From Candidatus Eremiobacteraceae bacterium (GTDB lineage: Bacteria > Vulcanimicrobiota > Vulcanimicrobiia > Eremiobacterales > Eremiobacteraceae): 64,000 nucleotides of DNA. Position numbers and translations under genes: made by a program. The notes beneath the pieces are model-generated. The model was not told the DNA's origin. It did not search any database and saw nothing but the letters and a program-made list of their open reading frames with translations. How positions within the stretch are numbered: position 1 is the stretch's first letter; every line of letters begins with the position of its first letter. Positions 10,581-18,541 of this stretch are shown here, piece by piece. The DNA is taken from contig DASTCX010000016.1 of NCBI GenBank assembly GCA_035710745.1, positions 1 through 64,000 on the forward strand. The letters are read 5' to 3'.

Positions 10581-10607
10581 ATTGGTTACTTATTTATGGT
10601 AACCTAT
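10581..10607. promoter_or_regulatory. Inverted-repeat operator in the doxX-hxlR divergent promoter
   Basis: ATTGGTTAC at 10581-10589 and GTAACCTAT at 10599-10607 are inverted repeats matching at 8 of 9 positions around a 9-base AT-rich centre. A TATAAG (minus-strand reading) lies next to it on the DoxX side, and TTGCAT with TAACCT 17 bases apart is possible on the HxlR side. HxlR proteins bind such dyads as dimers, so this is the probable operator for both genes. Confidence 0.6.
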
Positions 10608-11018
10608 GGACCAAAGGATACTACGGCGAGGTTCGAATTGTCAAGCGCAAAAAAGCGCGAAATGCGGGACGGGGTGGAGTTGTCGAACTTCTGCCCCCGG
10701 TTTCACCGAGCGATCGAGCTCGTCGGCCGAAGATGGACCGGAGCGATCATCCGGATCCTTTTGTCCGGGCCGCGGCGGTTCAACGAGATAGCAGCTGGAG
10801 TTCCCGGACTCTCCGACCGGCTGCTGACCGAGCGGCTCCGAGAGCTCGAATGTCAGGGAGTTTTGCGCAGGGTCGTCGAGACGGGTTCACCCGTTCGCGT
10901 AGCGTACGAGCTCACCGAAGCCGGCACGGAATTGGATGCGACTATACGCGCACTTTCGACTTGGGCCGAGCGCTGGGTTGAAATCCCCGAGCCCGAGCAT
11001 TCGAAACGCGGCGCGTAA
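10596..11018 (+). CDS. HxlR-family winged-helix regulator
   Basis: A regulator of up to 140 residues containing the HxlR core: CPRFHRAIELVGRRWTGAII, then RRFNEIAAGVPGLSDRLLTERLRELE as recognition helix region, then the wing. The cysteine in NFCPR is the position used for redox sensing in HypR/YodB-type members. The ATG at 10596 lies inside the proposed operator, so the true start may be downstream: the TTG at 10638 or the ATG at 10662 just before DGVELSNFCP. It is divergent from doxX and 106 bases upstream of the oxidase operon, which it may also affect. Confidence 0.88.
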   Translation: MVTYGPKDTTARFELSSAKKREMRDGVELSNFCPRFHRAIELVGRRWTGAIIRILLSGPRRFNEIAAGVPGLSDRLLTERLRELECQGVLRRVVETGSPVRVAYELTEAGTELDATIRALSTWAERWVEIPEPEHSKRGA

Positions 11019-11124
11019 CGCGCGACGGGCTGCGACACTAGCAAGGATCTACTCGGGACCTTCGCAACTCATTCTACGGACGGAAACGTCGAGATGGAAT
11101 AGTTAAGTCGGAGGCGCTCATCGC

Positions 11125-11244
11125 GTGCCCGACAAGAAAAGTGAAGAACAGCTCCCGCTTACCGTCCGTTTTGTCGCCGGGCTCGGTTTGCTATTCGTCG
11201 CCGGCTGGCTCCTCATGTTCGTTCTGCTGACGAAGCGCTGGTAG
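11125..11244 (+). CDS. ba3-type oxidase small subunit (IIa-like), 39 residues
   Basis: A 39-residue peptide with one membrane helix: a charged start (MPDKKSEEQLPL), the helix VAGLGLLFVAGWLLMFVLL, then TKRW. It ends two bases before subunit II and has GGAGG 10 bases before its GTG. Size, single helix and position match the subunit IIa peptide of Thermus-type ba3 oxidases, which packs beside subunits I and II. The functional name is inferred mainly from position, since such short peptides share little sequence. Confidence 0.65.
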   Translation: MPDKKSEEQLPLTVRFVAGLGLLFVAGWLLMFVLLTKRW

Positions 11245-11246
11245 AC

Positions 11247-11714
11247 GTGCACATCCACCGATCCGAGAAGGTCTGGCTCGTCTGCGGTGTCGTCGCGCTT
11301 GTCGTCTTTCTCGCGATCATCGGCGGTGCGGCGATATCCGACGGTATCGTTCCGCCGAGCCACATCGAGACGATCGATCCGACGAAGGTCGCGCAGACGC
11401 CTCCCTTCGACCATCCAGGCTTGCGCCGCACCGGACCGCACACGATGGAAGCGTACGTCGTCGCGCACATCTTCTCGTTCACGCCGGACGCCATGAAAAT
11501 ACCGGTTGGGACGAAAGTGACGTTCTACGCCACCAGTCCCGACGTCGTCCACGGCTTTTTCATCACGGACACCGCAGTCAATATGATGGTCATCCCGGGC
11601 TGGGTGAGCTCCGCGACGCATACGTTCACGAAGCGCGGGAGCTATCTGCTGCTTTGCAACGAGTATTGCGGCGCGGGCCATCAATATATGTACGGGACAA
11701 TCGACGTCAAATGA
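11247..11714 (+). CDS. Cytochrome c oxidase subunit II, ba3 type
   Basis: A 155-residue protein: one N-terminal membrane anchor (about residues 9-30) and a cupredoxin domain that carries the CuA centre. The ligands are His102 (VVHGFF), Cys137, Cys141, His145 and Met148 in CNEYCGAGHQYM. It has one anchor and no long spacer, as in class B (ba3) oxidases. The domain accepts electrons from a cytochrome c or cupredoxin in the periplasm and passes them to subunit I. It starts with GTG two bases after the small subunit and is followed by subunit I 16 bases later. Confidence 0.94.
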   Translation: MHIHRSEKVWLVCGVVALVVFLAIIGGAAISDGIVPPSHIETIDPTKVAQTPPFDHPGLRRTGPHTMEAYVVAHIFSFTPDAMKIPVGTKVTFYATSPDVVHGFFITDTAVNMMVIPGWVSSATHTFTKRGSYLLLCNEYCGAGHQYMYGTIDVK

Positions 11715-11730: not shown

Positions 11731-13359
11731 ATGATCGCCGATCGCGTCAGAAGCCAAAACCGTCTCATTCTCGCGCACGTCTACGTCGCGACTGCCGCAT
11801 TGTGCGTCGGCGCGATCTTCGGTCTTCTTCAGGGCATGTCACGTGCCAGGTGGACCACGCCGCCCCCTTGGTTCGACTATTACCGGATGCTCACCGCGCA
11901 CGGCGTGTTGATGGCGCTCGTCTTCACGACCTTTTTCATCTGCGGCATCTGCACGTTCATGACGCAGCGTGCCATACCTCGCGAGCGTTCGCTCGTGCTC
12001 GGCTGGACGGGCTTCGCGGTCATGCTGGCAGGCACGCTTGCAGCGGCCTACGAGATCCTCGCCGGCAACGCGACCGTGCTCTACACGTTCTACGCGCCGC
12101 TCAAGGCGAGCCCGATATTCTACATCGGCGCGACGCTGCTCGTCGTTGGAACATGGCTGGTCGCGGCTGATATACTCCTCGACGTCGCATGGTTCCGCAA
12201 GAACCGGCCCGGCGAGCGTCTCCCGCTCGTCGTGCACGGGGCTGCATGCACGTTCGTCATGTGGGTCGTTGCGACGATCGGCGTCGCGATCGAGATGGTA
12301 TTCTTTCTCATCCCCTGGTCGCTCGGCTGGACCCCGACCGTCAACGTCATGCTCACCCGCATGCTGTTCTGGTATTTCGGGCACCCGCTCGTCTATTTCT
12401 GGATCATGGGCGCGTACCTCATCTGGTACAACGTCGTGCCGCTCTTCTTCGGCGGTAAGGTGTTCAGCGACGCGCTCACGCGCCTCGTCTTCGTCATGCT
12501 CGTCTTGCTGTCGACCCCCGTCGGCATCCACCACGAGTTCATGGAGCCGGGCATCTCAGCGGGTTGGAAGTGGCTCCACACGATGACGACGTACGGGGTC
12601 GTCATCCCGTCGATCATCACCGCGTTCTCGATATTCGCCGCGTTCGAGCTCGCGGCGCAGCGCAAGGGCACGAAGGGGTTCATCGCGACGATCCGCGGCT
12701 TGCCGTGGGGCGATCCGGCGTTCTCGGGCCCGGCACTCGGCATGATCCTGTTTATCTTCGGCGGCTTCGGAGGCATCGTCAACGCGTCGTACAGCATGGA
12801 TGCGCTCGTCCACAATACGATGTGGATCGTCGGGCACTTCCACATCACCGTCGGCGGGCCGGTGGCGCTCACGTTCGTCGGTTGCGCGTACTGGCTCGTG
12901 CCGCGACTCACCGGTCGCAGGCTATGGGCGCCGAAGCTCGCTCTCGCCCAGACGTATGCGTGGTTCATCGGCATGGCGATCATGTCGACCGCCATGCACT
13001 ACGCCGGGCTGCTCGGCTCGCCGCGCCGCACCGAAGATGTATCATATTTTGGGTCCGCCGTCGCCCAATCGTGGATGCCCGAGATGAATGCCGCCGCTGT
13101 CGGCGGCACGATCCTCTTCGTCAGCATCATCATGTTCGTCGCCGTCGCCGTCGGCACGCTCTTCACGCGAAAAGAGCAATTTCCGGAGGTCGTCTTCGCC
13201 GAGGTGGAACCGACGGCGCAGCCCACCCCGGCGGCGCTCGACGGAATGGGTCGCTGGGCTGTTTTGGCTGTGATCCTCGCCGTTCTAGCGTACGTCGGGC
13301 CTTTAAGGGAACTGCTCGCGCAGCACATCTACGGCGCGCCCGGCATGCGGACGTGGTAG
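11731..13359 (+). CDS. Cytochrome c oxidase subunit I, ba3 type (haem-copper oxidase class B)
   Basis: A 542-residue membrane protein of about 13 helices. Haem and copper ligands are visible: His57 (TAHGVLMAL), the CuB histidine His218 with its cross-link tyrosine Tyr222 (GHPLVYFW), the pair His267-His268 (GIHHEF) and His369/His371 (GHFHITVGG). The Tyr four residues after the first CuB histidine, and the lack of the D-channel motif, fit class B high-affinity oxidases. It reduces oxygen to water and pumps protons in the inner membrane. It forms one transcription unit with the two preceding genes. Confidence 0.95.
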   Translation: MIADRVRSQNRLILAHVYVATAALCVGAIFGLLQGMSRARWTTPPPWFDYYRMLTAHGVLMALVFTTFFICGICTFMTQRAIPRERSLVLGWTGFAVMLAGTLAAAYEILAGNATVLYTFYAPLKASPIFYIGATLLVVGTWLVAADILLDVAWFRKNRPGERLPLVVHGAACTFVMWVVATIGVAIEMVFFLIPWSLGWTPTVNVMLTRMLFWYFGHPLVYFWIMGAYLIWYNVVPLFFGGKVFSDALTRLVFVMLVLLSTPVGIHHEFMEPGISAGWKWLHTMTTYGVVIPSIITAFSIFAAFELAAQRKGTKGFIATIRGLPWGDPAFSGPALGMILFIFGGFGGIVNASYSMDALVHNTMWIVGHFHITVGGPVALTFVGCAYWLVPRLTGRRLWAPKLALAQTYAWFIGMAIMSTAMHYAGLLGSPRRTEDVSYFGSAVAQSWMPEMNAAAVGGTILFVSIIMFVAVAVGTLFTRKEQFPEVVFAEVEPTAQPTPAALDGMGRWAVLAVILAVLAYVGPLRELLAQHIYGAPGMRTW

Positions 13360-13456
13360 GGGCTGCGACTCCCGCAACATCTGCATAGGACCTTCACCGG
13401 ACCTTCCGCCCACGCGAACCTCCACTTGGAATAGTATGACATGGAGGTACTTCGCA

Positions 13457-13828
13457 ATGCGCACATCGCTCAATCGTATCGGAATCGGCCTCGCAGTTGC
13501 CGCTGTCCTGGCTGCGGCCGTGTCCCTGATGCCCGCGACCTCGTCGGCCCATCCTTCCATAGACATCGCGGTCGCGAACTGGAAGTTCACTCCGGATAAG
13601 ATCACGATTCCGGTCGGCGAACCGACGACGCTCCGAATGACGACGACATCCGGCGTCCACGGGATCAAGTCCGACGAGCTCGGCATCCCGATGACGACGA
13701 TTCCGAACGGCAAAGTCATCGAAGTGACGTTCACGCCGGCGAAGGCGGGCACGTACGTCCTGCACTGCCAGATCTTCTGTGGACCCGGCCATCCCAATAT
13801 GGCCCTGACGATCGTCGTAACGCCATGA
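13457..13828 (+). CDS. Stand-alone CuA-type cupredoxin, secreted
   Basis: A 123-residue protein with a cleavable signal peptide (about residues 1-31, ending SSAHP) and a cupredoxin domain. It has the full CuA ligand set: His68 (GVHGI) and Cys104, Cys108, His112 and Met115 in CQIFCGPGHPNM. The spacing is identical to that in the oxidase subunit II upstream, but there is no membrane anchor beyond the signal. GGAGG seven bases before the ATG at 13457 fixes the start. It overlaps the next gene by ATGA. It is probably a soluble electron carrier or copper donor for the oxidase; a duplicated subunit II domain is the likely origin. Confidence 0.82.
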   Translation: MRTSLNRIGIGLAVAAVLAAAVSLMPATSSAHPSIDIAVANWKFTPDKITIPVGEPTTLRMTTTSGVHGIKSDELGIPMTTIPNGKVIEVTFTPAKAGTYVLHCQIFCGPGHPNMALTIVVTP

Positions 13829-14982
13829 AGCAGCGCAATGCGATCGCCGCGATCGCGCTCGCATTTGCGGCGACCTTCTTCATCGTCGACGCCCGCCCGC
13901 TGCAAGCGATGCCGCCGTTCGCCCAGGCGTATGGGATGAACTGCGACGTGTGTCATACGGCTGTGCCGGCACTCAACGCGTACGGCCGCTACGTACAGCG
14001 CACGGGTTATGCGTCGCTCGACCCAGCGACCATCCATCGCGCGAACCCGCTCTGGATTGGCGAAACCGCGTTCTACGATTCCCAAGACCCGGCGCTCCCG
14101 CACCAGACGCAGTTAGGGAATCTCGCCATCCACGCCGCCGGCTATATCGGCACCGATTGGACGTTCCACGCACATCAGTGGATCGTGCAGAACAACGCGT
14201 CCGGCGGCACCGATACGCTTTGGGTGACGTACAACAACCTCTTCCACCGCGATGGCCATCTCTTCATAGGCAAGATCGAAGACGCAGCGCCCTCACCGTA
14301 CAGCCAGTGGTCTGAACTCAATGGGTTCGGCACGACCGGCGTCGTCTCGGGCGAACATGCCTGGCAATGGGGAGCGAACCGCTGGGGTACGAAGCTGGCG
14401 TATACGCACGACTGGGTCGTCGCGGAAGCCGCATACCTAGGTCCGAACGGCGACTTGAACAGCGCGACCGATTTCTCGGCCGCCCAGGACAAGACGTTTG
14501 ATTGGCGCCTCGCGTACGCGCCGCCGGCTGCGCCGTTCGAAGTCGGCGTCTACGGTGAGCGCGGCATCGTGCCGATCTCCGACGGTACATTCGACCACTA
14601 CAGCGGCTTGGCGGTCTACGGCCAAATGGATCCGATGCCGCACGGGATGCCAGGCATCTTCAGCGCCTACCAGACAGGCCATGACGCGAACGCGGGCGCC
14701 GGGCTCGGCGCATCGACGAGCAAGGCGTTCTCGGTGGACGTGTACGAGCCGTTCTTCAACCAGCGGGTGATGTTGGGCGCGCGGCACGACTACATCGATG
14801 ACGGATTCGGAAACCACAGCCACTCCTCGAACATCGACCTCGAGTGGCTCGCGGTGCGGCACGTTGACGATCGCAACGCGACCGGCCTCATCTTCAACGC
14901 GGAAGACGCCATCGTGCCGGGCGTGGGGCCGGACTGGAAGTACCAGCTGTGGTACGCAACTACCGTCGGTCCGCTGCACTAG
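13825..14982 (+). CDS. Monohaem c-type cytochrome with large barrel-like domain
   Basis: A 385-residue exported protein. After the signal peptide there is one haem c site, CDVCH (Cys40, Cys43, His44), at the start of the mature protein. The remaining 330 residues have alternating hydrophobic and aromatic strands (for example FDWRLAYAPPAAPFEVGVY) and many histidines, as in outer-membrane barrels. Its start overlaps the cupredoxin gene by ATGA. I infer an outer-membrane or periplasmic haem protein working in the same electron path. The barrel prediction is by eye only. Confidence 0.72.
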   Translation: MKQRNAIAAIALAFAATFFIVDARPLQAMPPFAQAYGMNCDVCHTAVPALNAYGRYVQRTGYASLDPATIHRANPLWIGETAFYDSQDPALPHQTQLGNLAIHAAGYIGTDWTFHAHQWIVQNNASGGTDTLWVTYNNLFHRDGHLFIGKIEDAAPSPYSQWSELNGFGTTGVVSGEHAWQWGANRWGTKLAYTHDWVVAEAAYLGPNGDLNSATDFSAAQDKTFDWRLAYAPPAAPFEVGVYGERGIVPISDGTFDHYSGLAVYGQMDPMPHGMPGIFSAYQTGHDANAGAGLGASTSKAFSVDVYEPFFNQRVMLGARHDYIDDGFGNHSHSSNIDLEWLAVRHVDDRNATGLIFNAEDAIVPGVGPDWKYQLWYATTVGPLH

Positions 14983-15117: not shown

Positions 15118-15615
15118 CTATGTGACTGAGAAGCCCCACATCTCGCGCTGACCGACCGTCACCGTCTCGCTCGCTCGTGTCACAAGCACCGGTACCTTCG
15201 AGTGCCGCAGCACGCCTTCCGCGATGCTGCCGAGCAAAGCACGTGCGAGACCACTACGGCCGTGGCTTCCTATCACGATGAGGTCCGCTTTGTGTTGGCG
15301 TGCGACGGTGAGGATGGTATCGACGCACGAGCCTTCTTCGATGCAGCTATTTGCGTCGATTCCGCCGCCCTTGGCCCGATCGACCGCGTCCTGCAGAGCC
15401 GCCTCTCCGGCCTCGCGTTCCGCTTCGAGCGCGTACGACGGATCGATGCTGACCGCCGGAGCGGACATCATCGCGGCGATCTTCGCCACCTCGCATACGT
15501 GCGTGAAGACGACCTTTGCGTCCTGATCCCGGGCGAGGCGCACCGCCAACGCGACGGCGGCATCCGAGGGAGCGGAGCCATCGACGGGGACGAGGATCAT
15601 TTTGAACATGGACAT
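15118..15615 (-). CDS. Universal stress protein (UspA family)
   Basis: A 165-residue single-domain Usp protein. It has the opening strand MILVPVDGSAPSDAA and the ATP-binding signature GSHGRSGLARALLGS followed by KVPVLV, so it is probably of the nucleotide-binding type. It is cytoplasmic. GGAGGATAAG precedes the ATG at 15615. It lies downstream of a small membrane protein and of a two-component/phosphoketolase remnant cluster on the same strand, a gene set often seen in low-oxygen or starvation regulons. That link is an inference. Confidence 0.94.
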   Translation of the reverse strand: MSMFKMILVPVDGSAPSDAAVALAVRLARDQDAKVVFTHVCEVAKIAAMMSAPAVSIDPSYALEAEREAGEAALQDAVDRAKGGGIDANSCIEEGSCVDTILTVARQHKADLIVIGSHGRSGLARALLGSIAEGVLRHSKVPVLVTRASETVTVGQREMWGFSVT

Positions 15616-15668
15616 GGTCTCTTATCCTCCGTTAGCGACCGCGATCAGCCGGATCGCGAAGCTCCGCA

Positions 15669-15875
15669 TCAATGGCCGCCATGCACCGCGCTGAGAGCCC
15701 ATCCTAGGTCGACGGGCCAGAGGACGATCGCGAGAGCCCCTTGCCAGAAGGTCAGATGCAGATAGCCGATGGTGAAGAGCCAGGCCCATATGCCGACGAT
15801 GAAGACGGCGCCGCTCGGATCCACACGCACCGTGTTGCCGCTACGCGGGTTGCCGCTTTGTGACGAGTTCTCCAT
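15669..15875 (-). CDS. Small membrane protein
   Basis: A 68-residue protein: a polar N-terminal third (MENSSQSGNPRSG), then two hydrophobic stretches (VFIVGIWAWLFTIGYLHL and FWQGALAIVLWPVDLGWAL) that form one long hairpin or two helices. GGAGG eight bases before the ATG at 15875 selects this start over the 15902 reading. No family is recognised. It is 53 bases upstream of uspA and probably in the same transcript. Confidence 0.65.
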   Translation of the reverse strand: MENSSQSGNPRSGNTVRVDPSGAVFIVGIWAWLFTIGYLHLTFWQGALAIVLWPVDLGWALSAVHGGH

Positions 15876-16011
15876 CGCGACGACCTCCTCACACACGAGC
15901 ACGATGCCATCTCGATGCTCAATTGTCGCCCCGAGGGCGGTGCGAACGTATGAAGGTCGTCGGAAGTGCGTAGGAACGTAGGCGTTTTTCTCGCCGTCGG
16001 GTCGAGGGCGT

Positions 16012-16446
16012 CTAACGCGACGAATCGACGAGCGCGTGCGTGCGTCGTGCGATGACGACGGCCTCGTTCGTCGCGATCACCCGCACGTCGACTTTGGCGT
16101 TCTCGGGAGATATCCGATCCGCGCATCGAAGGTTGAGCGTTTCGTCGATCTCGACGCCGAGATGCGCAAGTCCGGCGCAGATCGCTCCGCGGATGGGCGC
16201 TGCACCTTCTCCAATACCCCCGGTGAAGACGAGCGTGTCGAGTCCGCCGCATACCGCAGCTAGCGCACCGGCGTGTTTGACCGCGATGTAGACGAACAAG
16301 TCGATCGCGCTCTTGGCCTTATCGTCGGTCGAATAACGTGAGAGCAACTCGCGCACGTCCGACGACGACTCGGAGACCCCTCTCAGTCCCGATCGCTCGT
16401 TTAGCAGCGTCGTCAGCGTTTCGATCCCGGGCGCGTCATCGCTCCG
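16012..16446 (-). pseudogene. ackA: Acetate kinase, C-terminal part only
   Basis: This frame encodes the last 145 or so residues of acetate kinase: [27 protein letters not shown], the phosphate-binding VFTGGIGEGAAPIR and the terminal VIATNEAVVIARR. The first 240 or so residues are missing, including the substrate-binding arginines and the catalytic aspartate, so it cannot be active. Upstream it runs directly into the start of a phosphoketolase gene in another frame, with no start codon of its own. I read this as a deletion that removed most of xfp and the first half of ackA. Confidence 0.8.
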
Positions 16447-16577
16447 AAGTCGAGTGGTCGTTCCAAGAGCGGGTTGTCCAGGAGGTAGATCTGGCCGGCG
16501 GCGAGATAGTTCGCCGCTCGCCAATAGGCATGCAGTCGATCGAGTTCGTCGGTGCCGAGCGGCTTGACGTCGGTCAC
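16413..16577 (-). pseudogene. xfp: Phosphoketolase, N-terminal remnant (about 45 codons)
   Basis: From the GTG at 16577 the frame reads [19 protein letters not shown] followed by [17 protein letters not shown]. This is the conserved N-terminus of xylulose-5-phosphate/fructose-6-phosphate phosphoketolase, a protein of about 800 residues. Homology ends near 16447; the frame then runs through acetate kinase sequence out of phase and stops at 16413. The GTG overlaps the kinase gene upstream as GTGA, showing an originally intact operon. Phosphoketolase and acetate kinase normally act together, making acetyl phosphate and then ATP. Confidence 0.8.
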
Positions 16578-17305
16578 ATGCTTGATCGAGGACCCGCCGC
16601 GCAGTGGCGGCAGCTTTCGGATGCCGCGCCGGCGACGAGCGTTCCAGGAAGACGGATCGTGAAGCGAGCGCCTTTCTTGTCGTTTGACGAAACATCGATC
16701 GTGCCGCCGTGCGCTTCGACGAATTCCTTCGCGATCGCCAAGCCGTGACCGCTGCCGCGCGCTTCCGTTCCAGCGCTTCCGCGAACTCCCGGCAAGAAGA
16801 TCTTGTCGCGTTCTTCGTCGCGAACGCCCGGTCCGGAGTCGGAGATCGTGATCTGCAATCGATCGGCTTCGTGCATGCAATCGATCGCCACCACACCGCC
16901 CCGAGGAGTGTATCGCACCGCGTTGAGGAGCACATTCGAGACGATTTGCGCGATGCGCACAGGATCGGCGATGAAGCGCTTGCACGCTGTCAGCGGAACC
17001 GGGCATCGCGAGATCGACACGGCGATACCTCGATCAGCGGCGACAGGCTCGATGGCATGATACTCTCGGTCGAGAAGCTCACATACGTCGATCTCGACGA
17101 GGCGGACTTGGAGTGCGGCGACTTGGGCGGCCCTGATGTCGTTCAGCAGTGCCCCCAGCTGGTCAAGCGCCTGGAGCACGACTTTCAGGCGATCTGGGGT
17201 CGCTTTGAGCTTGCCGTCGATAAACGCCTCGACGTTCGCACGCGCCACCGCGAGCCGATTGCGGATGTCGTGGATGACCTCATCGGGACGCGCGCGGTCG
17301 CTCAA
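16574..17305 (-). CDS. Soluble sensor histidine kinase
   Basis: A 243-residue kinase with no membrane segment. The dimerisation/phosphoacceptor helix is at the very N-terminus ([13 protein letters not shown], His12), followed by the ATPase domain: N-box [12 protein letters not shown]1 DSGPGV and G2 [12 protein letters not shown]. There is no sensor domain in the protein, so signal input must come from a partner. The start is TTG at 17305, overlapping the response regulator stop as TTGA. Its own stop overlaps the phosphoketolase remnant. The pair is therefore cotranscribed and translationally coupled. Confidence 0.9.
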
Positions 17306-18042
17306 GGAGTTTTGGAGAGTTTGTAGCCGACGCCGAATACCGTGACGACGTAGCGCGGTTTCGTCGGATCCTCCTCCATCTTATGCCGGAGATTCGCGAT
17401 GTGGCGGTCGAGCGTACGGTCGAATATCTCGAGGTCGTCGCCCTTCACTTGATCGAGCAGCTGCGTACGCGTGAACGTGCGACCCGGGCTCGTGAAGAGC
17501 ACTTCGAGGATCCGGAATTCCGTCGGGGTCAGGTGAACGGGTTGACCGTGCAGCCGCACCTCATGTTCCGCCGAGTCGATCTCAAGATCGCCGATGCGGA
17601 TAGGCGATTCCGACGCGGCCTGTGCGTTCGAACGCGGAGCCGCCGCAGCATCGCCGGACCGGCGCAGCACCGTCTTGACTCGGGCGACCACTTCTCGAGG
17701 GCTGAAAGGCTTAGCGATATAGTCGTCGGCGCCAAGTTCGAGTCCTACGACCCGGTCAACTTCTTCGCCGCGCGACGTAAGCATGATGATCGGAACGTCG
17801 GAACGCGAACGGATCTCCCGAAACACGTCGAACCCATGCATTACCGGCATCTTCAGATCGAGGACGATCAGATCCGGTAGTTCGAGCTGCTGAAGTTCGA
17901 CCGCGCGCGCGCCGTCGAAAGCGGTGCGAACGTCAAAACCCTCGTCCGTCAGATATTTCTCGAGGACTTCGACGATCTGCTGCTCATCGTCGACGACGAG
18001 GATTTTCCGCCGTCGTTGATCCGCGCCGGATTGGGAACTCAT
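17302..18042 (-). CDS. OmpR/PhoB-type response regulator
   Basis: A 246-residue regulator. The receiver domain opens KILVVDDEQQIVEVLEKYL, with phosphoacceptor Asp62 (VLDLKMP), the conserved Thr (IIMLTSRG) and Lys (YIAKPFSP). The DNA-binding domain is of the winged-helix Trans_reg_C type (LTPTEFRILEVLF, then VVTVFGVGYKL). The ATG at 18042 begins just before the receiver; the longer frame from 18219 overlaps the upstream gene and has no support. It is coupled to the kinase by TTGA. It should activate or repress promoters, possibly its own operon. Confidence 0.94.
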   Translation of the reverse strand: MSSQSGADQRRRKILVVDDEQQIVEVLEKYLTDEGFDVRTAFDGARAVELQQLELPDLIVLDLKMPVMHGFDVFREIRSRSDVPIIMLTSRGEEVDRVVGLELGADDYIAKPFSPREVVARVKTVLRRSGDAAAAPRSNAQAASESPIRIGDLEIDSAEHEVRLHGQPVHLTPTEFRILEVLFTSPGRTFTRTQLLDQVKGDDLEIFDRTLDRHIANLRHKMEEDPTKPRYVVTVFGVGYKLSKTP

Positions 18043-18103
18043 GCGCCTGACTTTTACGCGTCGCGCACTGCGTCCCCCGCGGCCGTAAGCGCTCGGTCGG
18101 CTC

Positions 18104-18541
18104 CTACTGCGCGGTGACGGCATACTCGCGGTCGTCGACCGCCGGTACACATGCGGCCTCGACAATCGTCCGGCAAAGGGCTTCCGCGAGGCTGGCGACC
18201 GCTTCGCGCACGATGGCATGTTCGCGGGGCGGCTCTGCGTCGAGGTTCGCCCGTAGCGTAACCGTCACTGCCGTCGACGTCAAAGCCTCAGGGTGGAGGT
18301 CGATCCGTCCCATCACAGGGTGACGAAGGTCGGGTGAGTCAGCTATGAAGCGGAATCGAGCGGCATCGGTCGCCGCTTCGACGACGCGGACCGCGACGAC
18401 GAAGTGCATCCCAGTCCTGCCGACGATGTGGGCGCGCTCACCCGACCATTCATCGGACGTCAAAACGGCCGCGAGGACACGGCTGCAGACCTTCCAGGGG
18501 AGCCCCGCGATCGACTCGCGGAATGCTGTAATCTCATTCAT
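18104..18541 (-). CDS. Protein of unknown function
   Basis: A 145-residue cytoplasmic protein beginning MNEITAFRESIAGLPW. It alternates beta strands and helices (HFVVAVRVVEA, TAVTVTLRANLDAEP) and ends with a helical region. It has no signal peptide and no recognised family; a START/SRPBCC-like fold is conceivable but unproven. It stops 61 bases before the response regulator and is probably the first gene of that operon. GAGG nine bases before the ATG is inside a predicted mRNA stem, so translation may be regulated. Confidence 0.6.
   Translation of the reverse strand: MNEITAFRESIAGLPWKVCSRVLAAVLTSDEWSGERAHIVGRTGMHFVVAVRVVEAATDAARFRFIADSPDLRHPVMGRIDLHPEALTSTAVTVTLRANLDAEPPREHAIVREAVASLAEALCRTIVEAACVPAVDDREYAVTAQ

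Follow-up and report, generated by a model that had tools for sequence, protein, structure and literature searches.

The closest described counterpart of the locus reported here is the rus operon of Acidithiobacillus, which has the gene order cyc2-cyc1-cup-coxBACD-rus (PMC10654088, PMC4059628). In Acidithiobacillus, electrons pass from Cyc2 to rusticyanin and then to an aa3 oxidase (PMC4059628, PMC10654088). Published Cyc2 proteins carry the signature AXPXFAR[Q/K][T/Y] upstream of CXXCH, followed by PXL (PMC8406198). We analyzed a window of 64,000 nucleotides, the whole stretch of DNA under study, from the contig DASTCX010000016.1 of a Candidatus Eremiobacteraceae bacterium. An earlier note on this DNA had stated that no complex of this composition was described; that was too strong, because Cyc2, periplasmic cupredoxins and a haem-copper oxidase together form the known rus layout (PMC10654088, PMC4059628). 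As in the rus operon, an outer-membrane monohaem cytochrome-porin, a small periplasmic cupredoxin and a haem-copper oxidase are predicted to be encoded together. The window locus differs in that its cupredoxin is a soluble protein of the CuA kind (two Cys), whereas Acidithiobacillus has blue rusticyanin or green AcoP, in that its oxidase is ba3 rather than aa3, and in having no cytochrome c4 and an altered Cyc2 signature. Neither a cytochrome c4 gene nor a type-1 cupredoxin gene was found between 11.0 and 15.0 kb of the window. What is new compared with the rus layout is that CuA replaces type-1 copper and ba3 replaces aa3.

CuA is known as a fixed electron-entry site in oxidases and in N2O reductase, and also as an interface site in PmoD. 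We know of no CuA protein that acts as a free soluble shuttle. The window cupredoxin resembles PmoD/AmoD in that its predicted CuA site belongs neither to an oxidase nor to an N2O reductase; unlike it, PmoD is membrane-anchored, with CuA at a homodimer interface and with other ligands (PMC6189053).

Results

Organization of the Locus

The gene order is IIa-like ORF, subunit II, subunit I, cupredoxin and cytochrome, all on the forward strand of the window (Table 1). Subunit I matched the ba3 subunit I of Thermus thermophilus at about 1e-114, and mitochondrial-type aa3 at best at 2e-13; by similarity we assign the oxidase to the ba3 type (B-type), as closer to ba3 than to A-type or cbb3 enzymes. 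Subunit II, whose own CuA motif has the ligand spacing Hx34Cx3Cx3Hx2M, is preceded by IIa-like ORFs in most of the relatives examined. Directly 5' of the ba3 unit is an HxlR-type regulator gene (window 10596-11018), and in the sister species (L033) an HxlR-type regulator gene lies directly 5' of the cupredoxin-cytochrome pair. The HxlR-type protein is a possible candidate regulator of both the ba3 unit and the pair.

Table 1. Features of the oxidase unit, the cupredoxin-cytochrome pair and their upstream elements in the window.
Feature	Coordinates	Strand	Basis or remark
Promoter-like element 1, 5' of the ba3 unit: CTGCGAC-N18-GGACCTTC-N32-GGAATAGT	11031..11103	+	words and spacing as in element 2
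Subunit IIa-like protein, 39 aa, one helix, GTG start	11125..11244	+	named from its position and shape alone
ba3-type oxidase subunit II, N-terminal anchor and CuA domain (CNEYCGAGHQYM)	11247..11714	+	COX2 3.4e-10
ba3-type oxidase subunit I	11731..13359	+	COX1 1.6e-86
Promoter-like element 2, 5' of the cupredoxin: CTGCGAC-N18-GGACCTTC-N32-GGAATAGT	13363..13435	+	present in altered form in the sister species
Predicted secreted soluble cupredoxin, CuA ligand set His68, Cys104, Cys108, His112, Met115	13457..13828	+	family and PDB matches, alignment, AlphaFold, Foldseek
Predicted Cyc2-like outer-membrane cytochrome-porin: signal peptide, haem domain, 16-strand barrel	13825..14982	+	alignment, AlphaFold, Foldseek, hhalign

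Cupredoxin

The cupredoxin ORF runs from an ATG at 13457 to a TGA at 13826-13828, and the cytochrome start at 13825 overlaps this stop; the ATGA coupling of the two genes had been correctly placed in the earlier note. Family matches were to Cupredoxin_1 (9.5e-14) and COX2 (1.4e-5), and the best PDB sequence matches were the CuA domains of Thermus ba3 (about 1e-8). The five residues previously named as a complete CuA set were confirmed. Their motif reads Hx35Cx3Cx3Hx2M in the window cupredoxin and is intact in 40 of 40 alignment rows with a spacing of x34-36, the reference CuA ligand motif being Hx34Cx3Cx3Hx2M (PMC6189053). The description of the protein as secreted and anchor-free also held, as its sole hydrophobic stretch is the signal peptide, judged by eye to end between SSA and HPS, and a second hydrophobic segment (an anchor) was not found after it. 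The predicted mature protein begins with His-Pro (window 13550-13552), a start that is kept in most relatives and absent in some, and this N-terminal His could be a metal ligand.

AlphaFold gave a confident cupredoxin fold (pLDDT 95.6), for which Foldseek returned a Bacillus Cupredoxin_1 protein and the CuA domains of Thermus ba3 and of N2O reductase. The closest fold match by E-value, the Bacillus anthracis Cupredoxin_1 protein (4HCF/4HCI), is soluble and single-domain and is likened to the window cupredoxin by fold alone. With the CuA domain of Thermus ba3 the model shares its fold (TM 0.88) and the ligand set Hx(34-35)Cx3Cx3Hx2M. Unlike that domain, the window cupredoxin has no membrane anchor, is encoded on top of a normal subunit II, and has a hydrophobic residue between the cysteines rather than Q, E or W; across the rows this residue is I, V, M or L (sometimes with P before the second Cys). 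CuA sites usually carry E, Q or W at this position. A hydrophobic residue is still compatible with CuA, because the ligand there is a backbone carbonyl. Judged from its sequence, the window cupredoxin is a soluble protein with the full CuA ligand set, which would be loaded with metal.

Cytochrome-Porin

The cytochrome has an N-terminal signal peptide (judged by eye) and a single CXXCH (CDVCH, residues 40-44; C40, C43, H44) that is invariant in 41 rows. Searched alone or as a profile, it had no match in Pfam, NCBIfam or PDB sequences. AlphaFold modeled the mature protein as a haem domain of ~48 residues followed by 16 long strands (mean pLDDT 83, pTM 0.83), and Foldseek matched this model to the 16-strand porins PorB, OprO/OprP and OmpF, with E-values down to 2.8e-10; OprO and OprP are porins also named for Cyc2 (PMC8406198). 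Structure prediction and Foldseek thus agree on a 16-strand porin, as expected from the original suggestion of a barrel in the cytochrome tail, and a soluble non-barrel fold was not borne out. In our model the tail is a 16-strand outer-membrane barrel. An outer membrane is likely in the host, since Omp85/BamA is present and an outer membrane with LPS is known from the cultured relative Vulcanimicrobium (PMC9758169). The conserved residues His178 (40 of 41 rows), His115 and His145 could provide an axial haem ligand, and are candidates only for the sixth position.

Similarity to the Cyc2 signature is seen in the haem segment, AMPPFAQAYGMNCDVCHTAVPALNAYGR (motif AxPxFA..Y..CxxCHxxxPxL), with the PXL motif present as CH-TAV-PAL. 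Like Cyc2, the protein has a signal peptide, one N-terminal CXXCH, AxPxFA and PxL, a 16-strand barrel (modeled here) and >365 aa (PMC8406198). Unlike Cyc2, it reads AMPPFAQAY where AXPXFAR[Q/K][T/Y] is published (PMC8406198), the signature arginine being replaced by Q or K in all clade-A rows, and the published motif filter would reject it; a further difference is that in this class the cytochrome is paired with a CuA or type-1 cupredoxin gene. Full-length tblastn against plasmids found nothing, whereas the haem domain alone did reach proteobacterial relatives there. Alignment with hhalign to five proteobacterial Cyc2-type proteins, plasmid-borne and typed as Cyc2 by motif and cyc1-like neighbors rather than by the published HMMs, gave a probability of 94 and an E-value of 9e-8 and extended past the haem domain into the barrel. 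Two of these five proteins adjoin c-type cytochrome genes. Because the signature arginine is absent, we call the cytochrome a divergent Cyc2-like variant and do not claim membership in Cyc2.

That absence also bears on whether this is true Cyc2 iron oxidation as in Acidithiobacillus, by an organism living on Fe(II), which we consider rather unlikely. The layout is Cyc2-like, and one MAG of Eremiobacterota from acid mine drainage reportedly carries a Cyc2-like gene (PMC8357290), but that MAG is without carbon-fixation genes (PMC8357290), no cytochrome c4 (cyc1) gene occurs in the cluster, and the class-wide spread is wider than that of known iron oxidizers.

Conservation of the Pair and Its Link to the ba3 Oxidase

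Some cytochrome match was present in 60 of 61 related genomes, and 59 places, with good or contig-edge cytochrome matches, were counted. The CuA gene is directly 5' of the cytochrome in 43 of the 59 places, mostly within 60 bases, and the conservation of the two genes in relatives, on which the original proposal depended, is therefore borne out: across the class, the CuA gene and the cytochrome gene form a conserved unit. All strong matches listed in a phylum-wide search fall within this same class, and a contig scan gave one near-identical locus with a cytochrome 94% identical. In the tree, the CuA-paired cytochromes of L117 and L118 lie outside the main clade; possibly the pairing arose a second time or is older than that clade.

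The pair had been described as attached to a ba3 oxidase, which is correct for part of the class. At 20 of the 59 places a gene for ba3 subunit I is no more than 5 kb away, in one or the other orientation, and by genome the cytochrome and ba3 occur together in 38, the cytochrome alone in 10, ba3 alone in 2 and neither in 11 (Fisher p 4e-5, ignoring kinship between genomes). The description fails for ten genomes in which the cytochrome is present and ba3 was not detected, so that ba3 would not be the sole acceptor. It fails also in the sister species (G001), where no ba3 separates the HxlR gene from the pair that directly follows it; with HxlR gene, element copy and pair together there and ba3 missing from between them, the pair forms a unit in its own right. 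We dropped the pair as a fixed part of the ba3 operon, ba3 being often far off or undetected.

These counts lend weight to a rival reading that sees in the pair a redox module of the envelope for general use, not dedicated to ba3 and feeding whichever oxidase is present (caa3 or others), with the ba3 neighborhood a habit of some lineages. The low number of places near ba3, the genomes without it, and the solitary pair of the sister species, which follows the HxlR gene under a promoter of its own, all favor this reading, whereas the genome co-occurrence and the upstream element common to the ba3 unit and the pair in this genome speak against it; we give it a little under an even chance.

Genes Downstream of the Pair

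Beside the pair, on the reverse strand, are genes for a universal stress protein, a histidine kinase and a response regulator (window 15118-18219). At 16012-17006, also on the reverse strand, a phosphoketolase start (~50 aa, by eye) appears to be fused to the final third of an acetate kinase (PF00871 positions 259-392), which looks like a decayed xfp-ackA pair. Genes of the stress and two-component type and phosphoketolase recur near the pair in relatives, hinting at a low-oxygen or stress setting.

Low oxygen, suggested by the universal stress protein, phosphoketolase and two-component system, would suit outward flow, with the CuA protein taking electrons from the inner membrane and the cytochrome-porin passing them to an external acceptor, and barrel-haem fusions are in principle reversible conduits. 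We regard this as very doubtful: one haem and a potential at the level of CuA are suited to feeding an oxidase, the nearest characterized proteins, Cyc2, oxidize Fe(II) (PMC8406198), and the pair co-occurs with an O2-reducing enzyme.

A Shared Upstream Element

The ba3 unit and the cupredoxin are preceded by the same promoter-like words at the same spacing (Table 1), with an extra GGACCTTC at 13399 in element 2. The part from GGACCTTC to GGAATAGT occurs at these two places only in the 2.97-Mb MAG to which the window belongs, and was never found in a reversed-pattern control of the genome or in window shuffles; the pattern was first noticed and then counted. We infer that this bipartite element may have a regulatory role. 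It would represent common control only if functional, because it was counted post hoc and a local promoter duplication would look alike. A recognizable copy lies between the HxlR gene and the pair in the sister species, and two direct-repeat promoter copies could have led to loss of ba3 by deletion there. Scans for general sigma-70 promoters and for terminators gave hits at the rate expected by chance. When k-mers were searched for a class-wide regulatory word 5' of the pair or the ba3 genes, the result was close to that of shuffled sequence, and the element is therefore claimed for this species, and in changed form for its sister, only.

A Parallel Pair With a Type-1 Cupredoxin

A second Cyc2-like gene is present in this genome (G000:C3; L072:7529-9354, -), ATGA-coupled to a type-1 cupredoxin gene; this pair is located elsewhere, not in the ba3 cluster. 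Its cupredoxin has the type-1 ligands C-x2-H-x4-M and a lipobox-like start. In this second Cyc2-like clade a type-1 cupredoxin gene precedes the cytochrome in 35 of 35 places, and by analogy the arrangement would be rusticyanin-like. In the tree the two cytochrome clades stand well apart (the outgroup carries a long-branch warning), and one class thus pairs a similar cytochrome-porin with two different copper sites. A third Cyc2-like group, of 500-660 aa (L109-L116, L121, L122), is widespread in the class; in L110 one member is encoded close to a subunit II of the caa3 type that includes a cytochrome c domain.

The type-1 pair bears on a further alternative, in which copper enters through the porin and is inserted into the oxidase's CuA site by the cupredoxin, acting as a chaperone. 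The cupredoxin gene is beside oxidase subunit II, and roles related to copper are known for other proteins that form CuA, such as PmoD (PMC6189053). Against this, the parallel pair uses a type-1 cupredoxin, the CuA pair persists without ba3, a covalent haem in the porin would be useless, and the chaperone would carry a complete redox-active CuA ligand set. We hold copper supply to be highly improbable.

Discussion

The analysis confirmed that the pair is real, conserved and functionally suggestive, a variant of the design of cytochrome-porin, cupredoxin and oxidase, for which we can suggest a mechanism. We favor, as probable, a reading in which the pair is an outer-membrane electron inlet with a periplasmic shuttle, feeding ba3 or another oxidase. 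The mechanism is modeled on Acidithiobacillus because Cyc2 there passes electrons to rusticyanin and these then reach the aa3 oxidase; its metal loading, location, direction of flow, donor and partner contacts are predictions. The 16-strand barrel would sit in the outer membrane, and its only c-type haem would be held by a short N-terminal plug at the periplasmic opening, where an external diffusible reductant would reduce it through the pore. The haem would pass its electron to the soluble CuA cupredoxin, which would diffuse across the periplasm and reduce the subunit II CuA of ba3, or another oxidase where ba3 is absent, and the oxidase would then reduce O2. Nothing in the window points to an external electron donor; by analogy, Fe(II) would be the likeliest. 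Counting against this reading are also the missing signature arginine, the hydrophobic residue between the cysteines of the cupredoxin, and the ten cytochrome-bearing genomes in which ba3 was not detected.

CuA sites have a potential near +250 mV. Such a potential would be well above that of a neutrophilic Cyc2, which is +208 mV (PMC8406198), and more in keeping with near-neutral conditions than that of rusticyanin.

A stand-alone CuA carrier would be a new use of CuA, and the class offers a natural comparison, with the same kind of cytochrome accompanied by CuA in one clade and by type-1 copper in another. We tentatively suggest, while thinking it somewhat less than an even bet, that a free soluble CuA shuttle from the cytochrome-porin to the oxidase, together with two parallel inlets (CuA and type-1), gives much of this widespread soil class respiratory electrons from external sources. 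An abundant, largely uncultured soil class may in this way take electrons from outside the cell, and the genes described here provide testable targets.
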